NCBI GenBank assembly: GCA_025766275.1
Contig: JAFKAC010000021.1
Location: 186,001-250,000 of the forward strand
Direction: 5' to 3'
Source: Lactarius indigo
Lineage: Eukaryota > Basidiomycota > Agaricomycetes > Russulales > Russulaceae
DNA length: 64,000 nt
Part shown: positions 19,861 to 37,690 of the stretch, piece after piece
How positions within the stretch are numbered: the first letter of the stretch is position 1
Layout of the letters: each line of letters starts with the position of its first letter
Notes under the pieces: generated by a model
The model's database searches: none
What the model was told of the DNA's origin: nothing
What the model saw: only the letters and a program-made list of their open reading frames with translations
Position numbers and translations under genes: made by a program

Positions 19861-20184
19861 GAAGTATACGAAATGTGAGAAATGGCAACGATAAGGCGCT
19901 CTTTACGGAGGCACATTACCGCCAGGGGCCGGAAGTTCAGTGATGTCTTCAAATTGCTTGCTAGCGGTTCCTGGCCTGAGCACGACCTCCGAGTCATCGA
20001 ATCGCAGGAGGTTTCAGCAACGCCATCTAACACTCTTCCACTATCCAGCAGCACAAGATATGGAACACGGAAACCGTTCTCGAATTCGTGCGTAAATTGC
20101 CATCGACCGACCGACTATCCGGGCCGGAGTCCCTCAGCCGGTAGTCGATCATCGTCGATCCCATCTTTTGAAGTTGCACTGGCA
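19861..20184. promoter_or_regulatory. shared promoter region of divergent genes
   Basis: This 324-bp interval separates the ATG of the MLKL-like gene (19860, minus) from the likely ATG of the C2-NACHT gene (20185, plus). The two genes are head to head and must share upstream sequence. A plus-strand frame is open across part of it, so the NLR could start further upstream. No specific binding site can be named. Confidence 0.45.
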
Positions 20185-22947
20185 ATGCTCGCTCAGGAAT
20201 CGTCCTTGGACAGCACTCGAATCACTGAGTCGAAGGGAAACCTACGTATTGAGGTGACCAGGTATGTAGATCCTGACTCATTGACGCTTTGATAGCTGCA
20301 TATCCTCTTTATTAGTCCTCCGAGCGCACAATATTCCACGTATCAAGAAACCGTTAAGCCTGAAGAGGCGGTTCTATGTCATTGTAGTCAATCACGCAAC
20401 AACGAAGAAGACTAAGAGCGTCCAGGTTGACTGGACAAACGGTGCACTGGAATCAGAGGCTCGGTGCCTTGTAAGACCTTCCCTTAGGCCTTCGATATTA
20501 TTTTTCGGCTAAAAGTTCAATTCAGTTCTACACAACCTTCTTCACATCTTACTCTGTGCCTTTACGAAAAGCGGTACTTACACCCTGATGTCGTTGTCGG
20601 AACGCACGAGATACCGATACCTGTCGAATCCCAAAACGGTTCGCATCGTATTATAGGCCTCGCCGTTCGACTAACTTAGCTGAGTGTCTCTGGGGCAGAC
20701 GTTTCTCTTATTCTCGGTAACTGGCGATAGGGAAGCGGAAAGGTCGACGCAGCCGGCTACGCTCTACTTAACGATCACTGTTCTATCAAACGCAGCTTCT
20801 CCAATCTTTCCCATCAACCCCTCCGATATACCGACTAGAGGAGACGGCTCCTCCGCTGAAGGGTATACTGAACCTTCTATGGTCACGGACTCCTGGGGAC
20901 CCACCACTCATACCGGCCCGGGTCCTCTCTTACCCTCGTCGGATCGCCTTCCCATCGAGACCGGCTTTCCTTCACCAGGTGGCCAGACATGGATGTCGCC
21001 AACCGAGGGGGCTCTGATTGCTCTCCGTCGCGCCGATGAAGCCAAGAAGCCAGTTGACCGAAAGAATAAATGGAAGGGGGCTGTCAGTAGAATCAAGTGG
21101 GTGATGGACACTGTAGCCCCGATTGCAGAAGTGCGTGCGATATCCGTTTTGCCTCTCCTCAACTGATCCCGCTTTCGCTCTCAGCTCCACCCATTTGCAA
21201 AGATGGCGTATGGCTTGGTTTCAGCCATCCCTGGGGTGCGTGTGTTTGCGTTACTGTTGGGAGGAAGCATTTATGCAATTTTATTCGGGTCACAGACACT
21301 CCTAGAACAGTATCAACGCGACGAAAATGTCCTAGCCCTACTTGAAGCCATGCACGACGCGTTTGATTTTGCGCACCACGAAGACACTTTAAGATCCATC
21401 AAGCCCGACTCTAAGCAGGCCGAAATCCTCACTATGATGCTACAGGACGTCTGTAGCTGCAGCGACTTTATACAATCGTATGCAGAGGACTCACGATTCT
21501 GTATGTTGGCTTCGTCTTCTCTCTTTTGGGTGTCATAATCATTTGGTCCTTAGGGAAGCGTACGTTGAAGAATATGGGCGGGGGAGTTGCCGAAGATATT
21601 GGGAACTTGTCCGCCGCCCTTGTTGGTCGTCGAAGGGCTTTCTTGGATCAAACCACCATCACCACGGAAATAACTGCCTTCCGAATTCTGGACGGCGTAG
21701 GAATACTTTCAGCTAAGGTGGATGGGATATCTACTCAGCTGAAGTGGGTATCAAGCCAAGTTTCAGACGCCGGTACGTAGCCCAGATGACATGGGTTAGG
21801 TGGGATAATCGATCTGATTATCGTTTAAGAACTAGATGCGAAAATCAGAGAAATCCCATATGGGACAGGCTCGCGATTCACACCCGATAAGGGCTGTCTT
21901 ATGGGAACACGCGCGGCCTTCCTGGACTTCATTGTTAATTGGGTAAATGACCCCGCTTCGGAGCGTAGTCTCGTTCTTTTTGGGCAAGCGGGCACGGGGA
22001 AAGTCATCTATCGCGCACGAGATCGCACGTCGATTCGAAAAAATGCATCGTCTTGCGTCTTCCTTTATTTTTTTGCGGAAGGAGCAGTCAAAGCGCGAGG
22101 CTTATCACCTCTTCACGACTCTTTCTCGCGATCTCTCCGACCGCTATCCATCGTTCAAAGCCGCACTTGGAAAGGTCATTGAGGATAATTCCTCTCTTCG
22201 AGTCGGTACTCGCGACTATCCCACGCTTTTTCAATCCCTTATCCTGGAGCCTCTTAAGGGACTGCACGTCGTCGGTCCTATTCTTGTTGTGATTGATGCC
22301 TTAGACGAGTGCGGGGATGTGACTGGTGAAAAGGGGTTACACAGATTTCTTGCTAAAAATCTCTCTAGACTGCCGTCGAACTTCCGTGTGCTGATCACCT
22401 CGAGGCTGGAGGACGGACATCGGGCCTGCGTTCGTTGGAGCCTCGTCAGTCTGCATCAAACACATGGACGATCTTGGGCTAGCTGCTAGTACACATGACG
22501 ATATTCTCACCTTTCTTCGGACGAGGCTCCATTCTGACGAGTTGAATATTTATTGCTAATGCGCTGGCAACAAAGGCAGAGGGTTTGTTTCAGTGGGCAG
22601 CGGTTGCCTGTGGATACATCCTAGAACCCCCCGAATTCTTTGATTTTAGCAGGATCAAATGCGTAGAACACCTTTTGAAACCCACGGCGGATCAATGTAG
22701 ACCAGATCCGTTGGACGAGCTATACGAAGAAGTCCTCAAAGGATACTTCCGACACAAGGGAGCGCAGCGTCTATTCCGCTCTGTCATGGGACAGCTCATT
22801 GCCGCATTTGAACCCCTTTCCATCCGATCCCTCATTACTCTACGTCGGCATGCTTCTATTGGTGACGACTCTGATCCTGAATCCGTCCGTAGAATGCTCT
22901 GTCACCTAAGCTCATTGCTGACTAATGTTAATTCATCTGATGAAACC
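20185..22947 (+). pseudogene. C2-NACHT NLR gene, 3' end cut off by MULE copy A
   Basis: This gene encodes a STAND-type signalling ATPase of the Agaricomycete NACHT family. The likely start MLAQESSLDSTRI is followed by a C2 domain in two exons (LRIEVT, then IPRIKKPLSLKRRFYVIVVN and TTKKTKSVQVD, then SHLTLCLYEKR and GTHEIPIPVESQ), an exon with QPATLYLTITV, a helical region (APIAE joined across an intron to LHPFAKMAYG), the Walker A motif (FGQAGTGK then SSIAHEIARRF near 22000), Walker B (ILVVIDALDECG near 22290), a TSRLE sensor, and the start of the winged-helix part (ALATKAEGLFQWAAVACGYI; ELYEEVLKGYF). Frame breaks near 20332, 20430, 22002, 22414 and 22554 fit single extra bases. The frame runs into the transposon and meets a stop two codons inside it, so no C-terminal sensor domain remains. 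Confidence 0.75.
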
Positions 22948-23214
22948 AGTCTTTGACTTTTCGCACGGATCTCACGGTCCGGGCCGGTCTTGCCGGTTCT
23001 CACGCCACTCAAATTCAAAGTCCGATTTCTTCGAACTTTTGGGCGACCATATTTTATTTCCACCGAGTAAATACCAGAGTGAAATAACAGTAAAATAAAT
23101 AAACGCGTAAACAACGCGTAAATAATGCGTCAATAACGCGGTCTGTGTATCGGTTTGGGTGTGTATGAGGGAAGGGAAGGAAGGACAAACAATCCCTCTT
23201 CCCAATCTCCCATA

Positions 23215-25970
23215 ATGCCCACCTTCGATATTCCCACCGGCCCCTCGATTACCAAAAGGGGCGACACCTACCTTGTTTCCGACGCGAAGCTGCGCCGCGG
23301 GAAACGTGCTGTCACGAAGCCGCCGTACGGGAGCATTACCTACGATCGCGAGAAAGGGGAAATGTCACTGGAATGGGCTAACGATGACCAATTCCAGGTC
23401 TGGCTCGCTGCCGAGGAATACAAGAATACTATTAAGTTTATTCTTAGCCGTACTGAAGAGTCTAACTCACTAAATTGGCGGGCGCGGCGCGAGTACCGGT
23501 GTTCACGCAAGTTCTCGGGCGGGAAGACAGAGTACGAAAATACAAATCAATGGGATCGGAAGATCCCTTCGATGAAGACGGGCTGCCGATGCAAATTGAT
23601 TGTCAAGCTGTATCCAGACACCGATACTATTCTCGGGAAGTACGAGGCCCAGCACGATCACGCGCTTGGCGACGACAATTTGCGATTCCTCAGATTGTCA
23701 GACAACATTAGAAAGCTAGTAATGGAAATGGTTTACACGGGCATGGGCTCACAGGCAATAGTAAGTGCGATGTAATTGCTTCATTTCCCAAGTCAACGGC
23801 TATTGTTTAGCTGAAACGGGTGCGCGAATCCTGTAAGCGGACGGACCGCGATTACCACATGACAATGCGCGACGTCAGCCGCCTACGTCGGGTAGTGGAG
23901 AATGATGAAATACGCCTCGACAACAATGACGCGATCTCCGTTAGACTGTGGGTCACTCGGCTCCAGCAGGGCGGTGCTGAGGCCGTCCTGAAGGACAAGA
24001 GGGATCCCCCTCCACCTGAATCTGGATTATCTCCAGATTGTTTTGTCCTATGCATACAGACTCAATTCCAGAGGGACCGCTTCCGTGCGCTTGGCTCCGA
24101 TTTTTTATCAGTTGATGCCACCCACAACACCACTCAGTATGCAGGGGTGCAGCTTTTTACCCTGATTGTGAGGGATCTGTGGGGCCATGGTGCGCTTTGT
24201 GGCGCTTCCCGCTTATGGTCGCTTACACCACTTCCGCTTGACAGGTGTTCCTGTCGCGTGGATGCTGTCGTCAAATGGCACGGAAGCGACAATTGAATAT
24301 TTTTTCAATTTCGTAAAAACGCGGAACCCGGAGATCACGCCGCGAATAACAATGACCGATCGTGACAAGGCGCAAATGGGGGCAATCAAAACCGTATACC
24401 CGGAGACCACAGTGCTATTGTGCTGGTGGCACGTGCTCCGCGCAATGCGGATGCGCTTCTGCACGGATGAGTTCCCAGATCTTTGGCAACGTGTACGGGA
24501 ATGGGTCAAAACCCCCGATCAATCAACGTTTGATTCAACCTGGGAGTGGATCCAGACCAGCGACAAGGTTCCCGAAAGCTTTGTGGAGTACCTCAAGACC
24601 AATTGGATGAATGTTGTGCCCCTTTGGGCAGGGATCTCAAGGCAGAATCGGACGATCTTTCAAGAGGGTGATACCAATATGCTTATTGAGTCGTAAGTAA
24701 TCCTATCACATAGAAGATCAGGCTGGATCACTCAAATCAATGTCCATCTAGCTATCATCATGTATTAAAATCGAAGTGGCTGGAGGGGAAGCGCAATCGC
24801 CGCGTGGACCATCTGGTCCACACCCTTGTAATTCTTATGCTTCCGTCGTACGAGAACCGGCATGATCGCCAGCAGCTTGGATTTGAGGGGGAAGATCTGG
24901 CCGCCAAGCGTCGCAAGGAAATTCTCTCGCGAACACCGGAAATGAATGCCGAGAGTATCCGCGACCTAGGCGGCGATCGTTTTTACGTGCAATCCGTAAC
25001 AAACCCGTCGCGTAGGTATTTGGTTGAGCTTGGCACGCAGTCCTGTGACTGCCCCGACTGGCCCAGGGTCCGGCTGTGCAAGCACGTCTCCGCCGTTGCC
25101 CATTTCTTTGGGAACGGTGATCAGCGAATAGAAGTGGTAGTAGACAGGTCCCCGAAGAAGGTGCAACCAATTCGAGAGGGCTCGGTGCAGAGCGATATGA
25201 GTGCTGCATCGATTGTGGAGAATGTCATTGCTGTCTCCAAAGCATTCCTCACGGACGGCGCACCGTCGTCTCCTGAGACGGTTCGAAACCTTCAGATGGT
25301 TGAGTCCCGCCTGACCGCCGTTGTCCAGAACTCACGCAGTTCAGAGAGCCCACTCCCAGAAAAGGATGCCATCCCACCCAATCAAGGCACATGGGCCGAG
25401 ACCGCCGAGCGAATGGGAGCAAAGCGACAAAGGAGGAGACCTCGCTCTCCCCTCGCGTCCTCCCCGGAACTTCAAGTTGAACCCCCAGCAACTGAACGCA
25501 TTGGGAACCTCAATCGCAAGAAAGTCAAGCTAACGGATCCGTACAGTGGCGGAATCAGTTCCGGCCGTGACGCTGCGCCAGATGCGCGAACCGCAGCCCA
25601 GAACGCTGAAGCACGCGCCCGCGCCGCAGCAGACCCCCCTCTCACACAACTCCCGAAGCGTGCCCGCAAGCGTGCAGGTGTTCCAGCCCTATCCGCGCCC
25701 CCCTCTTCCTCGGCCCCCCCATCGTCTTCTTTCGCCCCCGTCGCGTGGTATACCTCCCCGGGAACTCAAGCCGCGGCGCACAACGCAGGTGCACCTTCCG
25801 CCCCCTCAGAAAACCATCTCTCGCACCCATCCGCTCCCCTACCCCTTTCTGCCCCCACCGCGTGGCACCCCGTTGCTTACCCTCCCGGAATGTACCCACA
25901 TGCCTCGTATCATTCAGTATATCCTTCGTATTGGCCTTACGGTTATTTCTCCTCCCCCCAGCCTCGTTAA
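23215..25970 (+). CDS. MULE transposase with SWIM zinc finger
   Basis: Four exons (23215-23760, 23811-24189, 24245-24692, 24752-25970) join into an uninterrupted 863-codon frame; introns are GT..AG, 50-59 bp. The N-terminal part (about residues 60-180) is a DNA-binding-type region with CSRKFSGG and GCRCKLIVK. The DDE catalytic core has D284 (FLSVDATHN), D347 (ITMTDRDKAQMG) followed by CWWHVLRAM, and E457 (NMLIESYHHVLKSKW). The SWIM zinc finger CxCx8CxH uses C556, C558, C567 and H569. The last 230 residues are Pro/Ser/Ala-rich. ATG 23215 was chosen because it follows a pyrimidine-rich leader; an in-frame ATG 60 bases upstream is the alternative. All catalytic residues are present, so the protein could be active. 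A Lys at 23509 replaces Glu in copy B. Confidence 0.88.
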
Positions 25971-27799
25971 CCGCCCCGCAATAGAGTAGAATAGGTTTTT
26001 TTTTTGGTTCTTTTTCGTTTCCGTTTGCCCTTCCGTACGTCTGCAAAGTAGTACATCCCTATATACCAGTAGTGCTACTACACGGCTTTCCGCCGTAATA
26101 TAATCCCTTCACCTTCGGTTTTGCGTGTACGAAGCGCACCTGAGCGATACAATATTCCCGTCCCCTGGCCCGCGTTCTACTATTCGGACCTGGGTTGGAT
26201 CACTTACGCTCTCCACCACACCTCGCGCTCACCCTTTCACCGCACTTGCGACTCTTTACGCCCAAGCTGTGTGGTCACTTCGTTTCCCACCTCGTGGTCG
26301 CTTCGTTTCCCGCCTCGTGGGTCGCTTCGTTTCCCACTTATTGTCGCTTCTGTCTCATCTCTTCAGTTGTCACCCCCGCGCCGCCTTCCACCACTCCAAC
26401 TCAGTTGGATTGCTGCGCCCCACTTCCCTCATGTCGTTTTACGTCTACGCTCTACCTCTTCTGTATTAAAGGTACGTTTCCTAGTCACTCCGGTGGCCCT
26501 CCCATCTTCTGACTCGCCTCCTAGCTCAGCCGCCCTCGCTGCCATCACTCTCGTTGCCCTACTCTCACCCTCACCCTCTGCCTCGCCAGCCTTATACCTT
26601 GCCGGCCCGCTCGCCCTCGCTGCCATCACTCTCGCTCTCACCGCCCTATTCTCACCGTCAGCCTGGTCGGCCGCGCTATCACACCTCGCCGGCCTCACTC
26701 CCGCCGCCAGCCCCGCCGCCACTGCCTACACTCTTACTCTCTCCCTCGCCGGCCCTCTGTCACCTTGTCCGTTCTCTGTCGCTCATGTCCCACCGACCTC
26801 ATACCCCTCCTTGCCCCTCTTTCACGACCCGCGCCTCTCTCCTGAAGCATGACCTCGTCATTCCCAGACCTCCGATCGCTTCATACCCCTCCTCGTCCCT
26901 CGATACCCTGGCGGTTTCTTATTCGGCTTCTACCTCACCAGCGTCTTCGGTATCGCCACAAACGCCTTTTGATGCGCACATGCCAGGACCCGTCAAGTTC
27001 GCTTTGGTAGAATCGAGCCTCGTCGAGGCTTCAGTTATTCCCCACGGTCACTCAATATCTTCCTCTGCAGAACCGAAGACCGTCGTGGACTCCAGTTATC
27101 CCCCACGGTCACTCAATATCCTCCTCCACCTCTGGGAAACTGAAGATCGTCGGCCCAGAGGTTATCTCTTCGACCATCCTCCTTGGGCTCGACTGGCTCC
27201 AGGTACCCCCCACGGTCACTCAATATCCTCTGCGAAGCCGAAGACCGTCGGCCCAGAGGTTATCTCTTCGGCCATCCTCCTTCGCGGACTCGACTGGCTC
27301 CAGTTACCCCCCACGGTCACTCAATATCCTCCTCTTCGAAGCCGAAGACCATCGTGGGTCAGTCATGTAAGTCAATTCTCGCTCACCTCTCCCCCTCCCT
27401 TCTTGCTTACGCACTCGTCCTCTCGCGCGCACGTAGTCCAACCCCTTGGTTGGACCATTTCATTGCTTACTTTCTCCACCCTCCGTCTTCGTCTCACCGT
27501 CTTCAGGATCTCACTCACACGTACTCCAGCTCCCTAGTTGGACCATTTCATTGCCTACACCGATTGGGCGGCGGTGCTCGGGGCCCATGTGACTTTCATG
27601 ATTAGCTAACAATCAATACATGTCGTGCTTATTGATTGTCTTGAAAAAATAACATGTTTAAGTCATTTTGTTTATTAGCTAATCGTCGAAAAAAGTTTGG
27701 TTCGAATGATCAGTCAAATGTCTGTTTAGGCGGAGACTGAAACTGAGTCCGGTCCAGAGGCGGACCGGACCGTGAGAACCGTGCGGAAAGTACCTAACT
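25971..27799 (+). other. long C-rich 3' region of MULE copy A
   Basis: This 1.8-kb stretch follows the transposase stop. The plus strand is strongly C/T-rich and the minus strand G/A-rich, so long frames stay open on both strands (for example 26121-26852 and 26554-27537) but begin at TTG, not ATG, and encode Ser/Pro/Leu low-complexity text. It contains a triple repeat of TCGCTTCGTTTCCC (about 26270-26335) and the tandem block at 27034-27360. It is probably non-coding internal sequence of the transposon rather than a second gene. Confidence 0.55.
27034..27360 (+). repeat. tandem repeats inside MULE copy A
   Basis: Four units share the core CCCACGGTCACTCAATATC (beginning near 27041, 27102, 27209 and 27310), each followed by related text with GAAGACCGTCG and, in the larger units, CCCAGAGGTTATCTCTTCG. 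The mirror block in copy B lies at 33269-33595. The arrays are identical in number in the two copies, which supports their recent common origin. Subterminal repeats in such elements can be transposase binding sites; that role is only inferred here. Confidence 0.7.
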
Positions 27800-27808
27800 G
27801 CATGCCAC
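27800..27808 (+). repeat. 9-bp target-site duplication half (GCATGCCAC) at right end of copy A
   Basis: The nine bases right of the AACT end of copy A are the exact reverse complement of the nine bases right of copy B (37682-37690). A 9-bp duplication is typical of Mutator-like insertions. A single element would show both halves at its own two ends in the same orientation. Here they are divided between the two copies. Confidence 0.75.
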
Positions 27809-28522
27809 GCGCCGTAAATCAAAGTCCGCGACTCCGAGTCTGCGGTGGTCGAATGTACGTACTCGACTTCTTGAGCGCACATACTGTACAACGCTGGCCT
27901 TTTGTGAATGGGAGCTATCACCCCAATTGATCCTTAGTGAGGTTTTGGTGGGTAGGAGTAAATGCATTTCTTCCTCACCTCTGGGCTCAGGCCCAGCTCC
28001 ACGCGCGCTAGATAGAGCTGATGGAACAATCTCCTGCTAACTATCATAGGACTCATTTTCGGTAATTACTGTAAGGACAAGATTAGTTACTGGGAATAAA
28101 TGCTCCCCAAAAAAGGACAGTCTGGAAGTCCTGGCACGAGATAAACTGTAAGCCGGTGGAATGGTCCGTATCCGGCCCAGGACTCGCGCATTGCGCCCAC
28201 TTAGCGCACTCACATCCTTCAATGTTTGTCGTCGCAACGTTGTTTCCCGTCACAGTCTCAGCTTGGTCGGATTCGGATGCTTGTCAGTTGTCGAAGCAGT
28301 GTCATATGCGTCGCGCGTTTATCAGCTTATTTTGAATAAGCGCCACACTGAGCGCTGCCCTCGGGTAGTCACCTGGTCTCAGTTTGGGCAGTTCCATGAG
28401 GCGTGAGGCAGTGCCATAATTTCCCAGCCCAAGCGTACAAGGTCATCGTGTTTCCTCCACGACTCACAAACACTTTCTCCAAACAGTAATCGTCACGACA
28501 GATTTCCTTCTCTCACTAGCAC
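27800..28522. other. 5' flank of the Goodbye-NACHT-ANK gene
   Basis: No separate gene is visible. The stretch holds the presumed promoter and leader of the NLR that starts at 28523. The first part (from 27800) is inferred to have been originally contiguous, in the opposite orientation, with 37691 onward. Confidence 0.5.
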
Positions 28523-31500
28523 ATGTCTTCACCCTCTGCCTCGTCCTCGAACTTCGTATCTGTCCTTGGTGCCGCCTTGAGCGAGTATAATAAGAAGACT
28601 GGCAAAGACCTTCTGGATCAACCGCTCACTGCTGATCTGGGGCTCTGCACCTCCACCGATGACATCCTGACTATACTCCAACATCACGCCAATGCGTTTG
28701 AGCAATTTAGGGGAGGTGATCACAGATTAATGAAATGGATCGGTTCGTCGGTACATGTCCTCGACACACTTTCCGCTACTCTTAGCGAGAGTGTTGGCCT
28801 GGTACGTCTCAGTGCTCGAATTCATGGCTATTCAAAGCTCGTTGTAACGTTATTATGCAGGCGTTCCCCCCTGCAAAAGCGATCTTTGTTGGCATTGGCG
28901 TCCTCCTCTCTGTTCGTATCCCGTATCTTCGTCCCTTATTACAAGCGCTGTTAATACTGGAGTTGTCAGGCTGCAAAGGACGTTAGAGAAAGCCATGATG
29001 TGCTTGTTGGCCTTTTTGAGCGCATCGCGGACTTCTTCAAGCGCTTTAACTTGTATATTCACAATTCCCCGGCAATTGAATTGGCGGAGGTACTGATTAA
29101 GGTCGTGGTTGAGGTACTGTGTATTCTCTCCATCGCAACGAAGGAGATGGAACAAAGTAGAACAAGTAAATTATTTCTGGGAGACGTACTTATTATTAGA
29201 CTCCTCTCACAACGTTTTCAGAAACGTACTTCAAGAAGCTCGCGGGAAAGGCGGATATTGAAGACGCGCTCAAGAGGTTGGAAAACCTGATACAAGAGGA
29301 GCACTGGGTGGCGACGGCTCAGGTTCTGAGGGACACCAGTGGCCTCAAAGACGGTGCGCAACCCTATCGACGGAGCGTCTTCGTCTCACTAAGCCTTTCA
29401 TCTAGATATGAAGACGGTCCGGGTAGCTGTACAGCAGATTGTAGACAATACAGACGAAGTAAAATGTCCGTGATCCCCTATTTTCGCCACCGTCGTGGAG
29501 ACTGAATTCGTGTCGCAGGGGAGCAAATACGACTGGGCGTTCGAAAATGGTTCTGTCCACCTGACCCATCGACGAATCACAATATCGCATGCGAGACCTT
29601 CCACGAGAGGACAGCCACGTGGTTCTTTGAAGGCAACATGTTCATGGACTGGATGTCAATCGGTTCCCTCCTGTGGATCCACGGAAAACGTACGTCTCCG
29701 CTATCCTTCCTTGGTAAATTCTCAATGGTATCCCGCAGCGGGGTCTGGGAAGAGCGTCCTTTGGTTTGTCCCTTCCCAGCCTCTATCGCTGATCACCGTA
29801 ACTCATTGACTACAAGTTCTGCAATAATACAACGCATCATGGAATTTCGCAAGACTAGACCAGTTTCCTTGGCATATTTTTACTTCGATTTTCGGGACAA
29901 GGAAAAGCAGAATGTTCGCAACTTTGTCACTTCGCTGCTCATCCAGCTTTCTGCATACTCGAACTCTTGTTGTGACGTACTTTCCCGCGTTTATTCAGAG
30001 CACGGAAACGGCGCGCAACAGCCCAGTAATGGCCTGTTGGTAAGCTGTCTAAAGAAGATGCTCAGAGTCGCAGCCGAACACCCAGTTTACATTATCAGTT
30101 GACGCACTCGACGAATGTCCTGACCTCTCTGGGATGCCGACACAACGAGAGGCGGTACTTGACCTTGTGGAGGACCTCGTTCGCCAGCGCCTCCCAAATG
30201 TACATATATGCGTAACCAGCCGCCCGGAGGTTGACATAAAGACAAGACTCGAGCCACTAGCCTCTAACGCTGTTTCGCTTCACGACGAAAGTGGACAAAA
30301 GAAGGATATTTCTGACTACGTGAGCTCCGTTGTGTACTCGGACAGGAAGTTGCAGAGATTGCGGGACGAGGATAAGAAACTGGCCGTCGAGTTGCTGTCT
30401 GAAAGAGCGGATGGAATGTAAGGGCGTTCTTTGCATTTGGATAAGTCATCTCATCGTAAATCACATAGGTTCCGGTGGGTCTTTTGCCAGCTAGAGGTGT
30501 TACGGCACACCTTTTCGCGAAATGTGCGACGGGTCCTTGACGAATTACCCAAGAGCCTAGATGAGACGTATGAACGCGTGTTGAAGGATATCAATGAGAA
30601 TAATCAAGAACACGCACATCGTCTCCTTCATTGCCTCGCCGTTGCCATGAGGCCGCTTCGTGTCGAGGAACTCGCTGAAATTCTTGCGTTTGACTTTGAC
30701 GTGGCCGAGGAAGACATTCCGGAGTTCCGCGCGGATTGGCGGTGGAAAGACCAAGAACAAGCCGTCCTGTCTACGTGCTCAAGTTTGATCGCTATCGTGA
30801 ACAATAACGGCTCTCAGGTCGTCCAGTTTTCCCATTTCTCCGTTAAAGAATTCTTGACGTCGAATCGCCTCGCGACGTCAACCGAGGACATCTCTCAATA
30901 TCACGTTCTCCCAAAACCCGCACATACTATTCTTGCGCGAGCCTGTCTCGGGTTCCTTCTCCATTTGGACGATCACGTCGACGATGAGGCTTCCAAGGAT
31001 TTCCCACTGGCCAAATACGCAGCTCAACACTGGGTTGCGCATGCCCAATTCGAGGACGTCGCATCACACGTGAAGGACGGGCATGGAGTCCCTCTTTGAC
31101 CCGGACAAACCACATTTTGCAGCATGGGTCCGGATACACAATATAGACCCACCGCTATATTGGGGGTTACCATCATCCTCGAAGAGTCCCACTCCCTTGT
31201 ACTATTCATCGCTTTGTGGATTCCAAAACCTAGTTGAGCACCTCGCCGGCAAGCACCCGAAGCATTTAAACGCCATTGGTGGAAGATTCCAGTCTCCGCT
31301 ACTTGCGGCCCTACGCGGAAGACACATTCAGGTTGCGAAGATCTTACTCAAGCACGGTGGAGATATTAATGTCCGAGGAATGAGAAATCAGACCCCACTG
31401 CACAACGCTATCTCATGGTCCCATCACGCCGCTGTCGAAACAGTGCAGTTCCTACTCGAACATGGCGCAGATGTGAACGCTCGCCAGGGCGATCCTCGGT

Positions 31501-32829
31501 ACTCCCCTACATCTGGCAGCAGATATCGGCGCACTCGAGGTAGCGCAGATCCTACTGGAGCAAAATGCAGGACATCCATTCTCGAAATAATAAGGGCCAG
31601 ACCCCGTTACACTTGGTGTCAAGGCGAGAGGTTTCCCAGCGCGAATACAATCGTCGCAATCTTGTGCAATTATTACTAGAGCATGGCGCGGATATTGACT
31701 GCACGCGACATGGAGCACGAAACCCCAGTTACATTTCGCATCCTATCATGGGAGGCTCGAGATCGCCCGGGTACTCCTCGACTGTGGTGCAAGCGTCAAG
31801 CATGAAGAACCATCGAGGCCTGACTCCAGTTGCACCTAGTCCTAGAAAAGAATTGGGGCTCCCAAGATGCTTTCGACCTTGCACTGCTACTCCTCGACCA
31901 CGGCGCCGACGTGGATGCAAGGTACAAGGACCACAGCACCCTGCTACATTTCGCATCATACCATGGGAGTGTAGAAATTGCGCAGTTACTCCTCGATCGC
32001 GGCGCAAATGCTAATGCGGAGAACGAACGCGGCCAGAAGCCATTGCACATAGTATTAGAGGGCAATTGCAATGCGCAAGATGCTCTCGCTCTCGCTCTGC
32101 GGTTATTAGAGCGTGGCGCAGACGTGGACGCACAAGACAACTGATCACGCCACCCCGCTACATCTCGCGTGCTACCACGGAAAGCTCGAGATGGCACAGG
32201 TCCTTCCTTGAACACGGCGCAAATCCCGACGCGCAGAACAGCTGGGGCCAGGCGCCATTACAACTAGTATTAGAAGGGAACCACGACGCCCAAGATGGTC
32301 TCGCCCTCGCACTGCTATTACTGACGCACGGTGCTGACGTCGATGTGCGAGATAAGGACCAAATCACCCCGCTAATTTTCGCAGCATTTCACGGGAAGCT
32401 CGAGATGCTACGGGTGCTTCTCGAGCACGGTGCCAACGCCAACGAGAAGAACGAAGGGGGCCAAACACCGCTGCACATAGTATGCGACTCGGACCGCGAA
32501 CCCCCAAGACTCCCAAGATAGTTTCAATCTCGCGCTGCTATTATTAAAGTGCGGTGCCGACGTGAACGCTCAAGATAAGTACCTCAACACCCCGTTACAT
32601 CTCGCATCCTACAATGGGAGGCTAGAGATGGCATGGGCGCTCCTCGACCATGACGCCAATGTCAATGCGGAAGACGACCGGGGCCAGACCCCGCTGCACC
32701 TAGTATCAGGTATAAACCATGACTCCCAAGTTCAAGTTGCTCTTGCGCAGCTACTACTGAGACGTGGCGCCAATGTGAATGCACAAGACGCCGACCACGT
32801 GACCCCATTACATCTGGCATCATACCAGG
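28523..32829 (+). pseudogene. Goodbye-NACHT-ankyrin NLR gene, cut by MULE copy B
   Basis: ATG 28523 (MSSPSASSSNFVSVLG) opens a region matching the fungal STAND N-terminal Goodbye domain, with exons ending in FKKLAGKADIEDALKRLEN and LRDTSGLKD. Then come WFCPPDPSTNHNIA, Walker A GKPGSGKS (split by an intron near 29690-29742; a further intron follows at about 29766-29811), YFYFDFRDKEKQNVRNFV, Walker B VDALDECP (about 30100), VTSRPEVDI, FRWVFCQLEVLR after an intron at 30419-30469, the winged-helix/arm region to VVQFSHFSVKEFL, FDPDKPHFAAW, and ankyrin repeats from about 31270 to 32829. The first 1.6 kb keeps frame through all introns. From about 30099 on, some eleven frame changes each fit one extra base. 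At 32829 the MULE begins and supplies 24 foreign codons and a stop (32903). An adaptor or cell-death sensor role is inferred from the family. Confidence 0.82.
31590..32829 (+). repeat. double-ankyrin supra-repeat array
   Basis: The ankyrin region is built from units of two repeats, about 70-75 codons each. One repeat carries the form LHLVLEGN..AQD..ALALLLL..GADVDA, and the next TPLHLASYHGKLEMAQVLLE followed by HGANxxAxNxxGQ. About four to five units are visible before the transposon cuts in. Adjacent units are very similar, including the rare inserted segment QDALALAL, which points to recent duplication or homogenisation within the gene. Such arrays usually form a stacked recognition surface. 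Confidence 0.7.
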
Positions 32830-33268
32830 AGTTAGGTACTTTCCGCACGGTTCTCACGGTCCGGTCCGCCTCTGGACCGGACTCAGTTTCAGTCTCCGCC
32901 TAAACAGACATTTGACTGATCATTCGAACCAAACTTTTTTCGACGATTAGCTAATAAACAAAATGACTTAAACATGTTATTTTTTCAAGACAATCAATAA
33001 GCACGACATGTATTGATTGTTAGCTAATCATGAAAGTCACATGGGCCCCGAGCACCGCCGCCCAATCGGTGTAGGCAATGAAATGGTCCAACTAGGGAGC
33101 TGGAGTACGTGTGAGTGAGATCCTGAAGACGGTGAGACGAAGACGGAGGGTGGAGAAAGTAAGCAATGAAATGGTCCAACCAAGGGGTTGGACTACGTGC
33201 GCGCGAGAGGACGAGTGCGTAAGCAAGAAGGGAGGGGGAGAGGTGAGCGAGAATTGACTTACATGACT

Positions 33269-33595
33269 GACCCACGATGGTCTTCGGCTTCGAAGAGGAG
33301 GATATTGAGTGACCGTGGGGGGTAACTGGAGCCAGTCGAGTCCGCGAAGGAGGATGGCCGAAGAGATAACCTCTGGGCCGACGGTCTTCGGCTTCGCAGA
33401 GGATATTGAGTGACCGTGGGGGGTACCTGGAGCCAGTCGAGCCCAAGGAGGATGGTCGAAGAGATAACCTCTGGGCCGACGATCTTCAGTTTCCCAGAGG
33501 TGGAGGAGGATATTGAGTGACCGTGGGGGATAACTGGAGTCCACGACGGTCTTCGGTTCTGCAGAGGAAGATATTGAGTGACCGTGGGGAATAAC
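33269..33595 (-). repeat. tandem repeats inside MULE copy B
   Basis: This is the mirror image of 27034-27360: four units with the core GATATTGAGTGACCGTGGG on the plus strand. Confidence 0.7.
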
Positions 33596-34658
33596 TGAAG
33601 CCTCAACGAGGCTCGATTCTACCAAAGCGAACTTGACGGGTCCTGGCATGTGCGCATCAAAAGGCGTTTGTGGCGATACCGAAGACGCTGGTGAGGTAGA
33701 AGCCGAATAAGAAACCGCCAGGGTATCAAGGGACGAGGAGGGGTATGAAGCGATCGGAGGTCTGGGAATGACGAGGTCATGCTTCAGGAGAGAGGCGCGG
33801 GTCGTGAAAGAGGGGCAAGGAGGGGTATGAGGTCGGTGGGACATGAGCGACAGAGAACGGACAAGGTGACAGAGGGCCGGCGAGGGAGAGAGTAAGAGTG
33901 TAGGCAGTGGCGGCGGGGCTGGCGGCGGGAGTGAGGCCGGCGAGGTGTGATAGCGCGGCCGACCAGGCTGACGGTGAGAATAGGGCGGTGAGAGCGAGAG
34001 TGATGGCAGCGAGGGCGAGCGGGCCGGCAAGGTATAAGGCTGGCGAGGCAGAGGGTGAGGGTGAGAGTAGGGCAACGAGAGTGATGGCAGCGAGGGCGGC
34101 TGAGCTAGGAGGCGAGTCAGAAGATGGGAGGGCCACCGGAGTGACTAGGAAACGTACCTTTAATACAGAAGAGGTAGAGCGTAGACGTAAAACGACATGA
34201 GGGAAGTGGGGCGCAGCAATCCAACTGAGTTGGAGTGGTGGAAGGCGGCGCGGGGGTGACAACTGAAGAGATGAGACAGAAGCGACAATAAGTGGGAAAC
34301 GAAGCGACCCACGAGGCGGGAAACGAAGCGACCACGAGGTGGGAAACGAAGTGACCACACAGCTTGGGCGTAAAGAGTCGCAAGTGCGGTGAAAGGGTGA
34401 GCGCGAGGTGTGGTGGAGAGCGTAAGTGATCCAACCCAGGTCCGAATAGTAGAACGCGGGCCAGGGGACGGGAATATTGTATCGCTCAGGTGCGCTTCGT
34501 ACACGCAAAACCGAAGGTGAAGGGATTATATTACGGCGGAAAGCCGTGTAGTAGCACTACTGGTATATAGGGATGTACTACTTTGCAGACGTACGGAAGG
34601 GCAAACGGAAACGAAAAAGAACCAAAAAAAAAACCTATTCTACTCTATTGCGGGGCGG

Positions 34659-37414
34659 TTAACGAGGCTGGGGGGAGGAGAAATAACCGTAAGGCCAATA
34701 CGAAGGATATACTGAATGATACGAGGCATGTGGGTACATTCCGGGAGGGTAAGCAACGGGGTGCCACGCGGTGGGGGCAGAAAGGGGTAGGGGAGCGGAT
34801 GGGTGCGAGAGATGGTTTTCTGAGGGGGCGGAAGGTGCACCTGCGTTGTGCGCCGCGGCTTGAGTTCCCGGGGAGGTATACCACGCGACGGGGGCGAAAG
34901 AAGACGATGGGGGGGCCGAGGAAGAGGGGGGCGCGGATAGGGCTGGAACACCTGCACGCTTGCGGGCACGCTTCGGGAGTTGTGTGAGAGGGGGGTCTGC
35001 TGCGGCGCGGGCGCGTGCTTCAGCGTTCTGGGCTGCGGTTCGCGCATCTGGCGCAGCGTCACGGCCGGAACTGATTCCGCCACTGTACGGATCCGTTAGC
35101 TTGACTTTCTTGCGATTGAGGTTCCCAATGCGTTCAGTTGCTGGGGGTTCAACTTGAAGTTCCGGGGAGGACGCGAGGGGAGAGCGAGGTCTCCTCCTTT
35201 GTCGCTTTGCTCCCATTCGCTCGGCGGTCTCGGCCCATGTGCCTTGATTGGGTGGGATGGCATCCTTTTCTGGGAGTGGGCTCTCTGAACTGCGTGAGTT
35301 CTGGACAACGGCGGTCAGGCGGGACTCAACCATCTGAAGGTTTCGAACCGTCTCAGGAGACGACGGTGCGCCGTCCGTGAGGAATGCTTTGGAGACAGCA
35401 ATGACATTCTCCACAATCGATGCAGCACTCATATCGCTCTGCACCGAGCCCTCTCGAATTGGTTGCACCTTCTTCGGGGACCTGTCTACTACCACTTCTA
35501 TTCGCTGATCACCGTTCCCAAAGAAATGGGCAACGGCGGAGACGTGCTTGCACAGCCGGACCCTGGGCCAGTCGGGGCAGTCACAGGACTGCGTGCCAAG
35601 CTCAACCAAATACCTACGCGACGGGTTTGTTACGGATTGCACGTAAAAACGATCGCCGCCTAGGTCGCGGATACTCTCGGCATTCATTTCCGGTGTTCGC
35701 GAGAGAATTTCCTTGCGACGCTTGGCGGCCAGATCTTCCCCCTCAAATCCAAGCTGCTGGCGATCATGCCGGTTCTCGTACGACGGAAGCATAAGAATTA
35801 CAAGGGTGTGGACCAGATGGTCCACGCGGCGATTGCGCTTCCCCTCCAGCCACTTCGATTTTAATACATGATGATAGCTAGATGGACATTGATTTGAGTG
35901 ATCCAGCCTGATCTTCTATGTGATAGGATTACTTACGACTCAATAAGCATATTGGTATCACCCTCTTGAAAGATCGTCCGATTCTGCCTTGAGATCCCTG
36001 CCCAAAGGGGCACAACATTCATCCAATTGGTCTTGAGGTACTCCACAAAGCTTTCGGGAACCTTGTCGCTGGTCTGGATCCACTCCCAGGTTGAATCAAA
36101 CGTTGATTGATCGGGGGTTTTGACCCATTCCCGTACACGTTGCCAAAGATCTGGGAACTCATCCGTGCAGAAGCGCATCCGCATTGCGCGGAGCACGTGC
36201 CACCAGCACAATAGCACTGTGGTCTCCGGGTATACGGTTTTGATTGCCCCCATTTGCGCCTTGTCACGATCGGTCATTGTTATTCGCGGCGTGATCTCCG
36301 GGTTCCGCGTTTTTACGAAATTGAAAAAATATTCAATTGTCGCTTCCGTGCCATTTGACGACAGCATCCACGCGACAGGAACACCTGTCAAGCGGAAGTG
36401 GTGTAAGCGACCATAAGCGGGAAGCGCCACAAAGCGCACCATGGCCCCACAGATCCCTCACAATCAGGGTAAAAAGCTGCACCCCTGCATACTGAGTGGT
36501 GTTGTGGGTGGCATCAACTGATAAAAAATCGGAGCCAAGCGCACGGAAGCGGTCCCTCTGGAATTGAGTCTGTATGCATAGGACAAAACAATCTGGAGAT
36601 AATCCAGATTCAGGTGGAGGGGGATCCCTCTTGTCCTTCAGGACGGCCTCAGCACCGCCCTGCTGGAGCCGAGTGACCCACAGTCTAACGGAGATCGCGT
36701 CATTGTTGTCGAGGCGTATTTCATCATTCTCCACTACCCGACGTAGGCGGCTGACGTCGCGCATTGTCATGTGGTAATCGCGGTCCGTCCGCTTACAGGA
36801 TTCGCGCACCCGTTTCAGCTAAACAATAGCCGTTGACTTGGGAAATGAAGCAATTACATCGCACTTACTATTGCCTGTGAGCCCATGCCCGTGTAAACCA
36901 TTTCCATTACTAGCTTTCTAATGTTGTCTGACAATCTGAGGAATCGCAAATTGTCGTCGCCAAGCGCGTGATCGTGCTGGGCCTCGTACTTCCCGAGAAT
37001 AGTATCGGTGTCTGGATACAGCTTGACAATCAATTTGCATCGGCAGCCCGTCTTCATCGAAGGGATCTTCCGATCCCATTGATTTGTATTTTCGTACTCT
37101 GTCTTCCCGCCCGAGAACTCGCGTGAACACCGGTACTCGCGCCGCGCCCGCCAATTTAGTGAGTTAGACTCTTCAGTACGGCTAAGAATAAACTTAATAG
37201 TATTCTTGTATTCCTCGGCAGCGAGCCAGACCTGGAATTGGTCATCGTTAGCCCATTCCAGTGACATTTCCCCTTTCTCGCGATCGTAGGTAATGCTCCC
37301 GTATGGCGGCTTCGTGACAGCACGTTTCCCGCGGCGCAGCTTCGCGTCGGAAACAAGGTAGGTGTCGCCCCTTTTGGTAATCGAGGGGCCAGTGGGAATA
37401 TCGAAGGTGGGCAT
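34659..37414 (-). CDS. MULE transposase with SWIM zinc finger (copy B)
   Basis: The four-exon, 863-codon structure is the same as in copy A (mirror exons 37414-36869, 36818-36440, 36384-35937, 35877-34659). The DDE residues and the SWIM finger are intact. It differs from copy A by one amino acid (Glu for Lys, at 37120). Transcription runs toward the NLR gene, which is itself transcribed toward this element, so the two would produce convergent, partly complementary transcripts. Confidence 0.87.
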
Positions 37415-37681
37415 TATGGGAGATTGGGAAGAGGGATTGTTTGTCCTTCCTTCCCTTCCCTCATACACACCCAAACCGATACACAGACCGCGTTATTGAC
37501 GCATTATTTACACGTTGTTTACGCGTTTATTTATTTTACTGTTATTTCACTCTGGTATTTACTCGGTGGAAATAAAATATGGTCGCCCAAAAGTTCGAAG
37601 AAATCGGACTTTGAATTTGAGTGGCGTGAGAACCGGCAAGACCGGCCCGGACCGTGAGATCCGTGCGAAAAGTCAAAGACT

Positions 37682-37690
37682 GTGGCATGC
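37682..37690 (+). repeat. 9-bp target-site duplication half (GTGGCATGC) beside copy B
   Basis: This is the exact reverse complement of 27800-27808. Read in the orientation of the element, the two halves give GCATGCCAC at both ends of one original insertion. Confidence 0.75.

Follow-up and report, generated by a model that had tools for sequence, protein, structure and literature searches.

How did two almost identical Mutator-like elements (MULEs) come to lie in opposite orientation, each against the broken end of an NLR-type gene, in the genome of the basidiomycete Lactarius indigo? The locus is part of contig JAFKAC010000021.1 of assembly GCA_025766275.1, positions 186,001 to 250,000; this whole stretch of 64,000 nucleotides is the window, to which coordinates given without a contig number refer. 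A reading made from the letters of the window only, here the sequence-only reading, had attributed the arrangement to recombination between two inverted elements. Reversed-ends (alternative) transposition by two MULEs that then lay in direct orientation, a single reaction that would have made both the inversion and the truncations, is given about an even chance of being correct, and is preferred to a stepwise path through deletion, then insertion, then recombination, which appears unlikely.

The element pair

MULE copy A occupies 22948-27799 on the forward strand and copy B occupies 32830-37681 on the reverse strand. Both are 4852 bp, near-identical, and inverted relative to each other, as the sequence-only reading had described. 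It had counted three differences; alignment gives 6 (99.88% identity, no indel), at positions 170, 291, 378, 562, 3954, and 4077 of the element. All six are CpG-to-TpG/CpA transitions, the kind of change that would be expected of methylation-driven decay in a young pair. When compared with up to six other copies, B carries the minority base at five of the six sites and A at site 562; the polarity is less sure at 170, 378, and 562, since there one more distant copy (on C135 or C254; C-numbers are contigs of the assembly) has the minority base as well. Differences between A and B are too few for chimerism of either copy to be read. The closest other full-length copy compared, on C248, differs from A at 39/4852 positions.

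Both elements carry, by Pfam search, a MULE transposase domain (PF10551, 2.5e-9) and a SWIM finger (3.6e-4) above cutoff; a FAR1 match (1.7e-5, just below) and a ZSWIM1-3 RNaseH-like match (5e-4) fall under it. These coding domains are spread over several reading frames, so the genes either contain introns or are broken. The terminal inverted repeats, judged by eye, are imperfect and lie inside the first 40 bases. Internal repeats of about 60-170 bp are also present in both elements, at 27027-27357 and 33272-33602 of the window.

Flanks of the two elements

The nine bases at the 3' end of A (GCATGCCAC, 27800-27808, forward strand) are the exact reverse complement of the nine at the 5' end of B (GCATGCCAC on the reverse strand, 37682-37690), in agreement with the sequence-only reading, and form the two halves of a common 9-bp duplication that connects one inner with one outer element end. 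The 9-mer occurs once per strand of the window, and the chance that two random window 9-mers agree is 2.0e-5, or 8e-5 with four pairings allowed. The remaining two flanks, GATGAAACC at the 5' end of A (22939-22947, forward strand) and CCTGGTATG at the 3' end of B (32821-32829, reverse strand, given in element orientation), are identical at 3/9 positions, and no words of 6-8 bases were found in common between the 20 bases adjoining A and those adjoining B on the left. Exchanged duplications had been proposed in the plural; one of the two pairs is exchanged.

The mismatch of GATGAAACC and CCTGGTATG is informative because the other copies of the family keep perfect duplications. Among the ten other copies with both ends read, nine, at 7 independent sites, have perfect 9-bp duplications, a count to be read with the caveat that a mismatching copy would have been scored as a rearrangement, as the copy on C228 was. 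The nine are those on C248 (TATAATGTA), C208 and C124:804136 (CTTTTTAGA, same site), C135 (GCCAAAACC), C287 (CACGCTCGC), and C226:1067820 (TCCAACTGT) and, in a sister subfamily, C225 (CCTGTTTAC) and C218 and C82 (TTCACTGGT, same site). The copies on C287 and C135 (first 2.1 kb) are about 95% identical to A and their duplications are still perfect. Decay of a second A/B duplication is therefore thought unlikely. In this count the elements on C226 and C225 were taken as single despite ends 41 and 30 kb apart, C254 was excluded because its 3' end lacks the terminal bases, and a 5' end at C226:406219 and a 3' end at C226:323614, with unlike flanks and 82 kb apart, were treated as separate elements.

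Widely spaced MULE ends, 30-41 kb apart, were noted at C226:1067820-1109053, C254:228438-269980, and C225:27027-56895, with perfect 9-bp duplications in C226 and C225. Samples of 600 bases show, by eye, retrotransposon-like frames (C226, C254) and MULE interior (C226), and where sampled the C226 and C254 arrangements are nested insertions, not giant MULEs.

Partners of the two unmatched flanks were looked for at other copies. GATGAAACC follows none of the 19 element 3' ends found by search, and CCTGGTATG precedes none of the 15 5' ends read, both counts including A and B; the 5' ends left out, from a search that scored 40 of 57 candidates, have at most 75% identity or are short pieces. A translocation that would have carried the partner ends elsewhere was rejected on these counts. 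The joint predicted for a reintegrated circle of the DNA once between the elements gave 0 matches in an exact-pattern search.

A probable recombinant family member

The tenth copy (G000:C228:487836-493251) has unmatched 9-bp flanks. Its left flank is that of the C287 copy (172081-177530) over the 20 bases read, and it is identical to that copy through the first ~700 bases, including an insert of about 560 bases. Its last part is A-like, with 34/3414 differences to A versus 168/3415 to C287. The right flank duplicates sequence at C228:429697, a site that is itself intact: an exact inverted copy of 136 bases of the flank lies there, at a distance of 58 kb on this contig. No homology was found in samples taken 4.9-5.1, 14.9-15.1, and 24.9-25.1 kb in. 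This copy could stem from ectopic recombination, break-induced copying, or a misjoin, and its mosaic of family sequences makes recombination inside this MULE family likely. Loci noted with it are C287:172081-177530 and C251:302931 (L057, L054, L075, L083, L098).

The two broken NLR genes

NLR 1, of the NPHP3_N/NACHT type, lies on the forward strand at 20182-22947 and ends at element A; its NPHP3_N domain is found by Pfam at 21947-22489 (4.9e-20). Six of the eight paralogs compared (74-77% identity) align up to 22934-22945, that is 2-13 bases short of the element; for the other two the alignment ends at 22844 and a separate 51-base piece (76%) reaches 22945. Beyond this breakpoint the paralogs run on for at least 1.5 kb, with WD40 repeats. 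The tail of one of them, L031, is conserved in 15/15 other paralogs compared, and WD40 repeats make up the final 243 residues (PF00400, 4.2e-51). Within the window no match to this tail was found, either at the DNA level with the tails of the eight paralogs or at the protein level with the L031 tail (E 0.01; pieces of 175 and 340 residues). By comparison with its paralogs, NLR 1 thus appears truncated at element A and deprived of its WD40 end.

The segment between the elements (27800-32829, forward strand as it now stands, inverted relative to its right-hand neighbour) holds NLR 2 at 28523-32828 on the forward strand, with a Goodbye-like N-terminus (just under cutoff), NPHP3_N, and ankyrin repeats. 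STAND genes carrying a Goodbye-like domain would by themselves suggest a fungal origin of the sequence. The final 96 codons before B are open and encode ankyrin repeats (PF00023, 1.4e-20), and the break falls inside a repeat. The ankyrin part occupies more than one frame, and the gene may have introns or prior damage. Matches of 19 NLR 2 paralogs to the window are confined to 27800-32829, bar one 47-base match at 10.8 kb given by two of the paralogs. Because such families have many paralogs, sequence missing from their members can be recognised. Many NLR 2-type paralogs, in both orientations, lie on a few contigs (C124, C227, C283, C35, and C285), and several are on the window's own contig.

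If the assembly is right, the junction at 27800/37682 and, with it, the derived orientation of NLR 2 relative to its right-hand neighbour are well supported, and to that extent the inversion of the sequence-only reading holds. The recombination between two ordinary inverted insertions to which it was ascribed is unsupported as stated, because under it the two flank pairs should each match and flipping the segment back should restore the broken genes. At least one extra event would have to be added, a deletion ending at the element ends.

A proposed reversed-ends transposition

Under reversed-ends transposition, two near-identical MULEs would have lain close by in the same orientation, A in NLR 1 and B in the ankyrin region of NLR 2, with NLR 2 then pointing toward NLR 1. 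The transposase would have brought together and cut the two ends that faced each other, 3' for A and 5' for B. The paired ends would then have inserted jointly at a point ~5 kb past B that separated the 5' side of NLR 2 from the right-hand region. Since the outer end of each element would have remained attached to its chromosome arm, the block with B and NLR 2 would have been turned round. The 9 bp of the target would have been duplicated at both new junctions, and the spacer between A and B, probably as one piece, would have been lost with the tails of both NLR genes. The inverted block would be B plus 27800-32829, that is 27800-37681 or about 9.9 kb, rather than the 5 kb of 27800-32829 that had first been delimited.

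A single event of this kind would account at once for the inversion and its one new duplication, for the flank pair that does not match, and for the absence of the tails. GATGAAACC and CCTGGTATG need not match, since under reversed ends they stem from different insertions, and 0/19 and 0/15 partner ends with 0 circle joints would be expected if the old flanks had left with the spacer. The expected signs have been described elsewhere. In the part of PMC8225341 concerned with such inversions, reversed-ends transposition leaves elements at both breakpoints and a new duplication at the inversion junctions, with the intervening fragment lost, and recombination creates no new duplication. The discussion of breakpoints in PMC2775673 takes exchange of both pairs as the mark of recombination, and an inversion with deletion or duplication as the mark of aberrant transposition involving copies located at different sites. 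A hybrid element insertion, in which the same ends come from homologous chromosomes, would leave an identical trace.

Several observations weigh against reversed-ends transposition. The likeness of A and B (6 differences, versus 39 to the next copy) makes two independent old insertions unlikely, and the model needs the second element to be a recent local copy. The order before the event was not seen: in this assembly, flanking queries outside the NLR genes matched only the window itself, other queries for an allele of the locus matched, beyond the window, only diverged NLR paralogs and short pieces, and no second copy of the right-hand region was found. The present order is that of the assembly only, and the ancestral order is unproven. 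Absent partner ends and an absent circle joint are what any deletion predicts too. Ankyrin arrays vary, so that loss of the NLR 2 tail is a weaker case than that of NLR 1. The C228 copy, unless it is a misjoin, shows that ordinary ectopic recombination also occurs in the family.

Alternative explanations

The alternative that survives best, although unlikely, is stepwise. Recombination between direct copies would have deleted the DNA between NLR 1 and a reversed NLR 2, so that a single hybrid element remained, with flanks that do not match; the GCATGCCAC site would next have received a copy, and recombination between the now inverted copies would have flipped 27800-32829. Such a history accounts for the unmatched pair and for both truncations, and A and B would be expected to be near-identical had one been a copy of the other; the C228 copy, unless misassembled, is itself a recombinant of two family members. 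However, two insertions would have to be followed by a deletion, another insertion, and an inversion, all in the time that A and B took to diverge by just 6 differences.

Less probable again, and rather improbable in itself, is that a single element, located in NLR 1, gave rise to an inverted copy at a nearby target, by hybrid element insertion between sister chromatids or by replicative adjacent inversion, and that a later transposase-linked deletion from the 3' end of B took the NLR 1 tail and the end of NLR 2. Eukaryotic MULEs are not known to undergo replicative inversion, and two special events would be required. Copying of this kind does explain why A and B differ by CpG decay alone, and a single-site hybrid insertion leaves identical copies according to the account in PMC2775673. 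Deletions are often induced by Mutator, and a citrus MULE with dissimilar 9-bp duplications stands at a 2-Mb deletion in the case described in PMC4334395.

An assembly artefact is very improbable. The 5-kb segment would have been placed backwards between 4.85-kb near-identical inverted repeats, and in the true order B would be an ordinary insertion flanked on either side by its duplication. Inverted repeats are known to be ambiguous in assembly, and the C228 recombinant might itself be a misjoin. Nevertheless, the contig is 846 kb long in a 90.3-Mb assembly of 291 contigs, so that the reads probably span 5 kb, and flipping the segment would still leave the A flanks unmatched and both NLR genes cut, so a rearrangement remains. 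The history proposed by the sequence-only reading, in which two normal insertions recombined with each other once, fits the inverted near-identical copies and the one exchanged pair but is hardly credible and was rejected, unless an extra deletion is added, on the second flank pair (3/9, though 9/10 other copies keep perfect duplications), with the NLR 1 tail unmatched in the window as a further point against it.

Related systems

Alternative transposition is a known kind of mechanism, well documented for maize Ac/Ds; at this locus it would have been carried out by a MULE pair in NLR-type genes. VANDAL21 of Arabidopsis belongs to the MULE superfamily, and impala of the fungus Fusarium to a different transposon family. 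The maize reversed-ends inversions, as presented in sections of PMC8225341, resemble the present arrangement in three respects: each breakpoint carries an element, with one of the two inside the inverted block and its partner just outside; the inversion junctions bear a new duplication; and the fragment between the elements was lost, as appears to have happened here. They differ in that the maize elements are Ac/fAc with 8-bp duplications and a known progenitor allele, whereas here the elements are MULEs, the duplication is 9 bp, and no progenitor was seen. Impala is named in the same part of that paper as an example of rearrangement by non-standard transposition, and its host, like Lactarius, is a fungus.

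The alternative transposition of VANDAL21 in the Arabidopsis met1 mutant, in the portion of PMC12312487 devoted to it, likewise involves paired elements and inversions, together with a spacer loss of the kind proposed here, and the pair lies in a region resembling a TIR-NLR pseudogene. In contrast to the present case, it is somatic, occurs in a hypomethylated mutant, and concerns a head-to-head pair about 200 bp apart; its duplications were not fully resolved by the reads, whereas here the duplication is readable in the assembled arrangement. By that account, VANDAL elements had no earlier link to alternative transposition. For the natural inversion of the Arabidopsis chromosome 4 knob, the same authors suggest alternative transposition, in which one end of one of two nearby VANDAL5 elements inserted elsewhere; that inversion is paracentric and in a plant, and the description compared mentions neither duplications nor a lost spacer (PMC12312487).

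Inversion 2z3 of Drosophila buzzatii, in the Galileo data given in PMC2775673, also has two opposite transposons at its breakpoints and exchanged duplications, and is attributed to ectopic recombination. There the exchange extends to both pairs, the two copies are chimeric, and no sequence was lost, whereas at the present locus one pair is exchanged and sequence appears to be missing. The citrus Arrufatina MULE resembles the present locus in its dissimilar 9-bp duplications tied to sequence loss, but in citrus that loss is a 2-Mb deletion with an inverted element, for which the authors state, in the relevant part of PMC4334395, no match to alternative transposition.

Significance

No reversed-ends inversion by a fungal MULE was found among the open-licence papers searched. 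That the locus records a heritable and sequence-resolved case, in which one reaction inverted ~10 kb, removed the sensor ends of two NLR genes, and left a readable 9-bp mark, is put forward tentatively, at just short of an even chance. A rule for inverted transposon pairs follows from the comparison of both flank pairs: two flank matches point to recombination or single-site hybrid insertion, whereas a single match, together with missing sequence, speaks for transposase action on two elements. If reversed-ends transposition is correct, the reach of this mechanism would widen to fungal MULEs, in a natural case whose duplication, unmatched old flanks, and missing gene tail can all be read from the sequence, and it would suggest that MULE pairs actively reshape NLR clusters.

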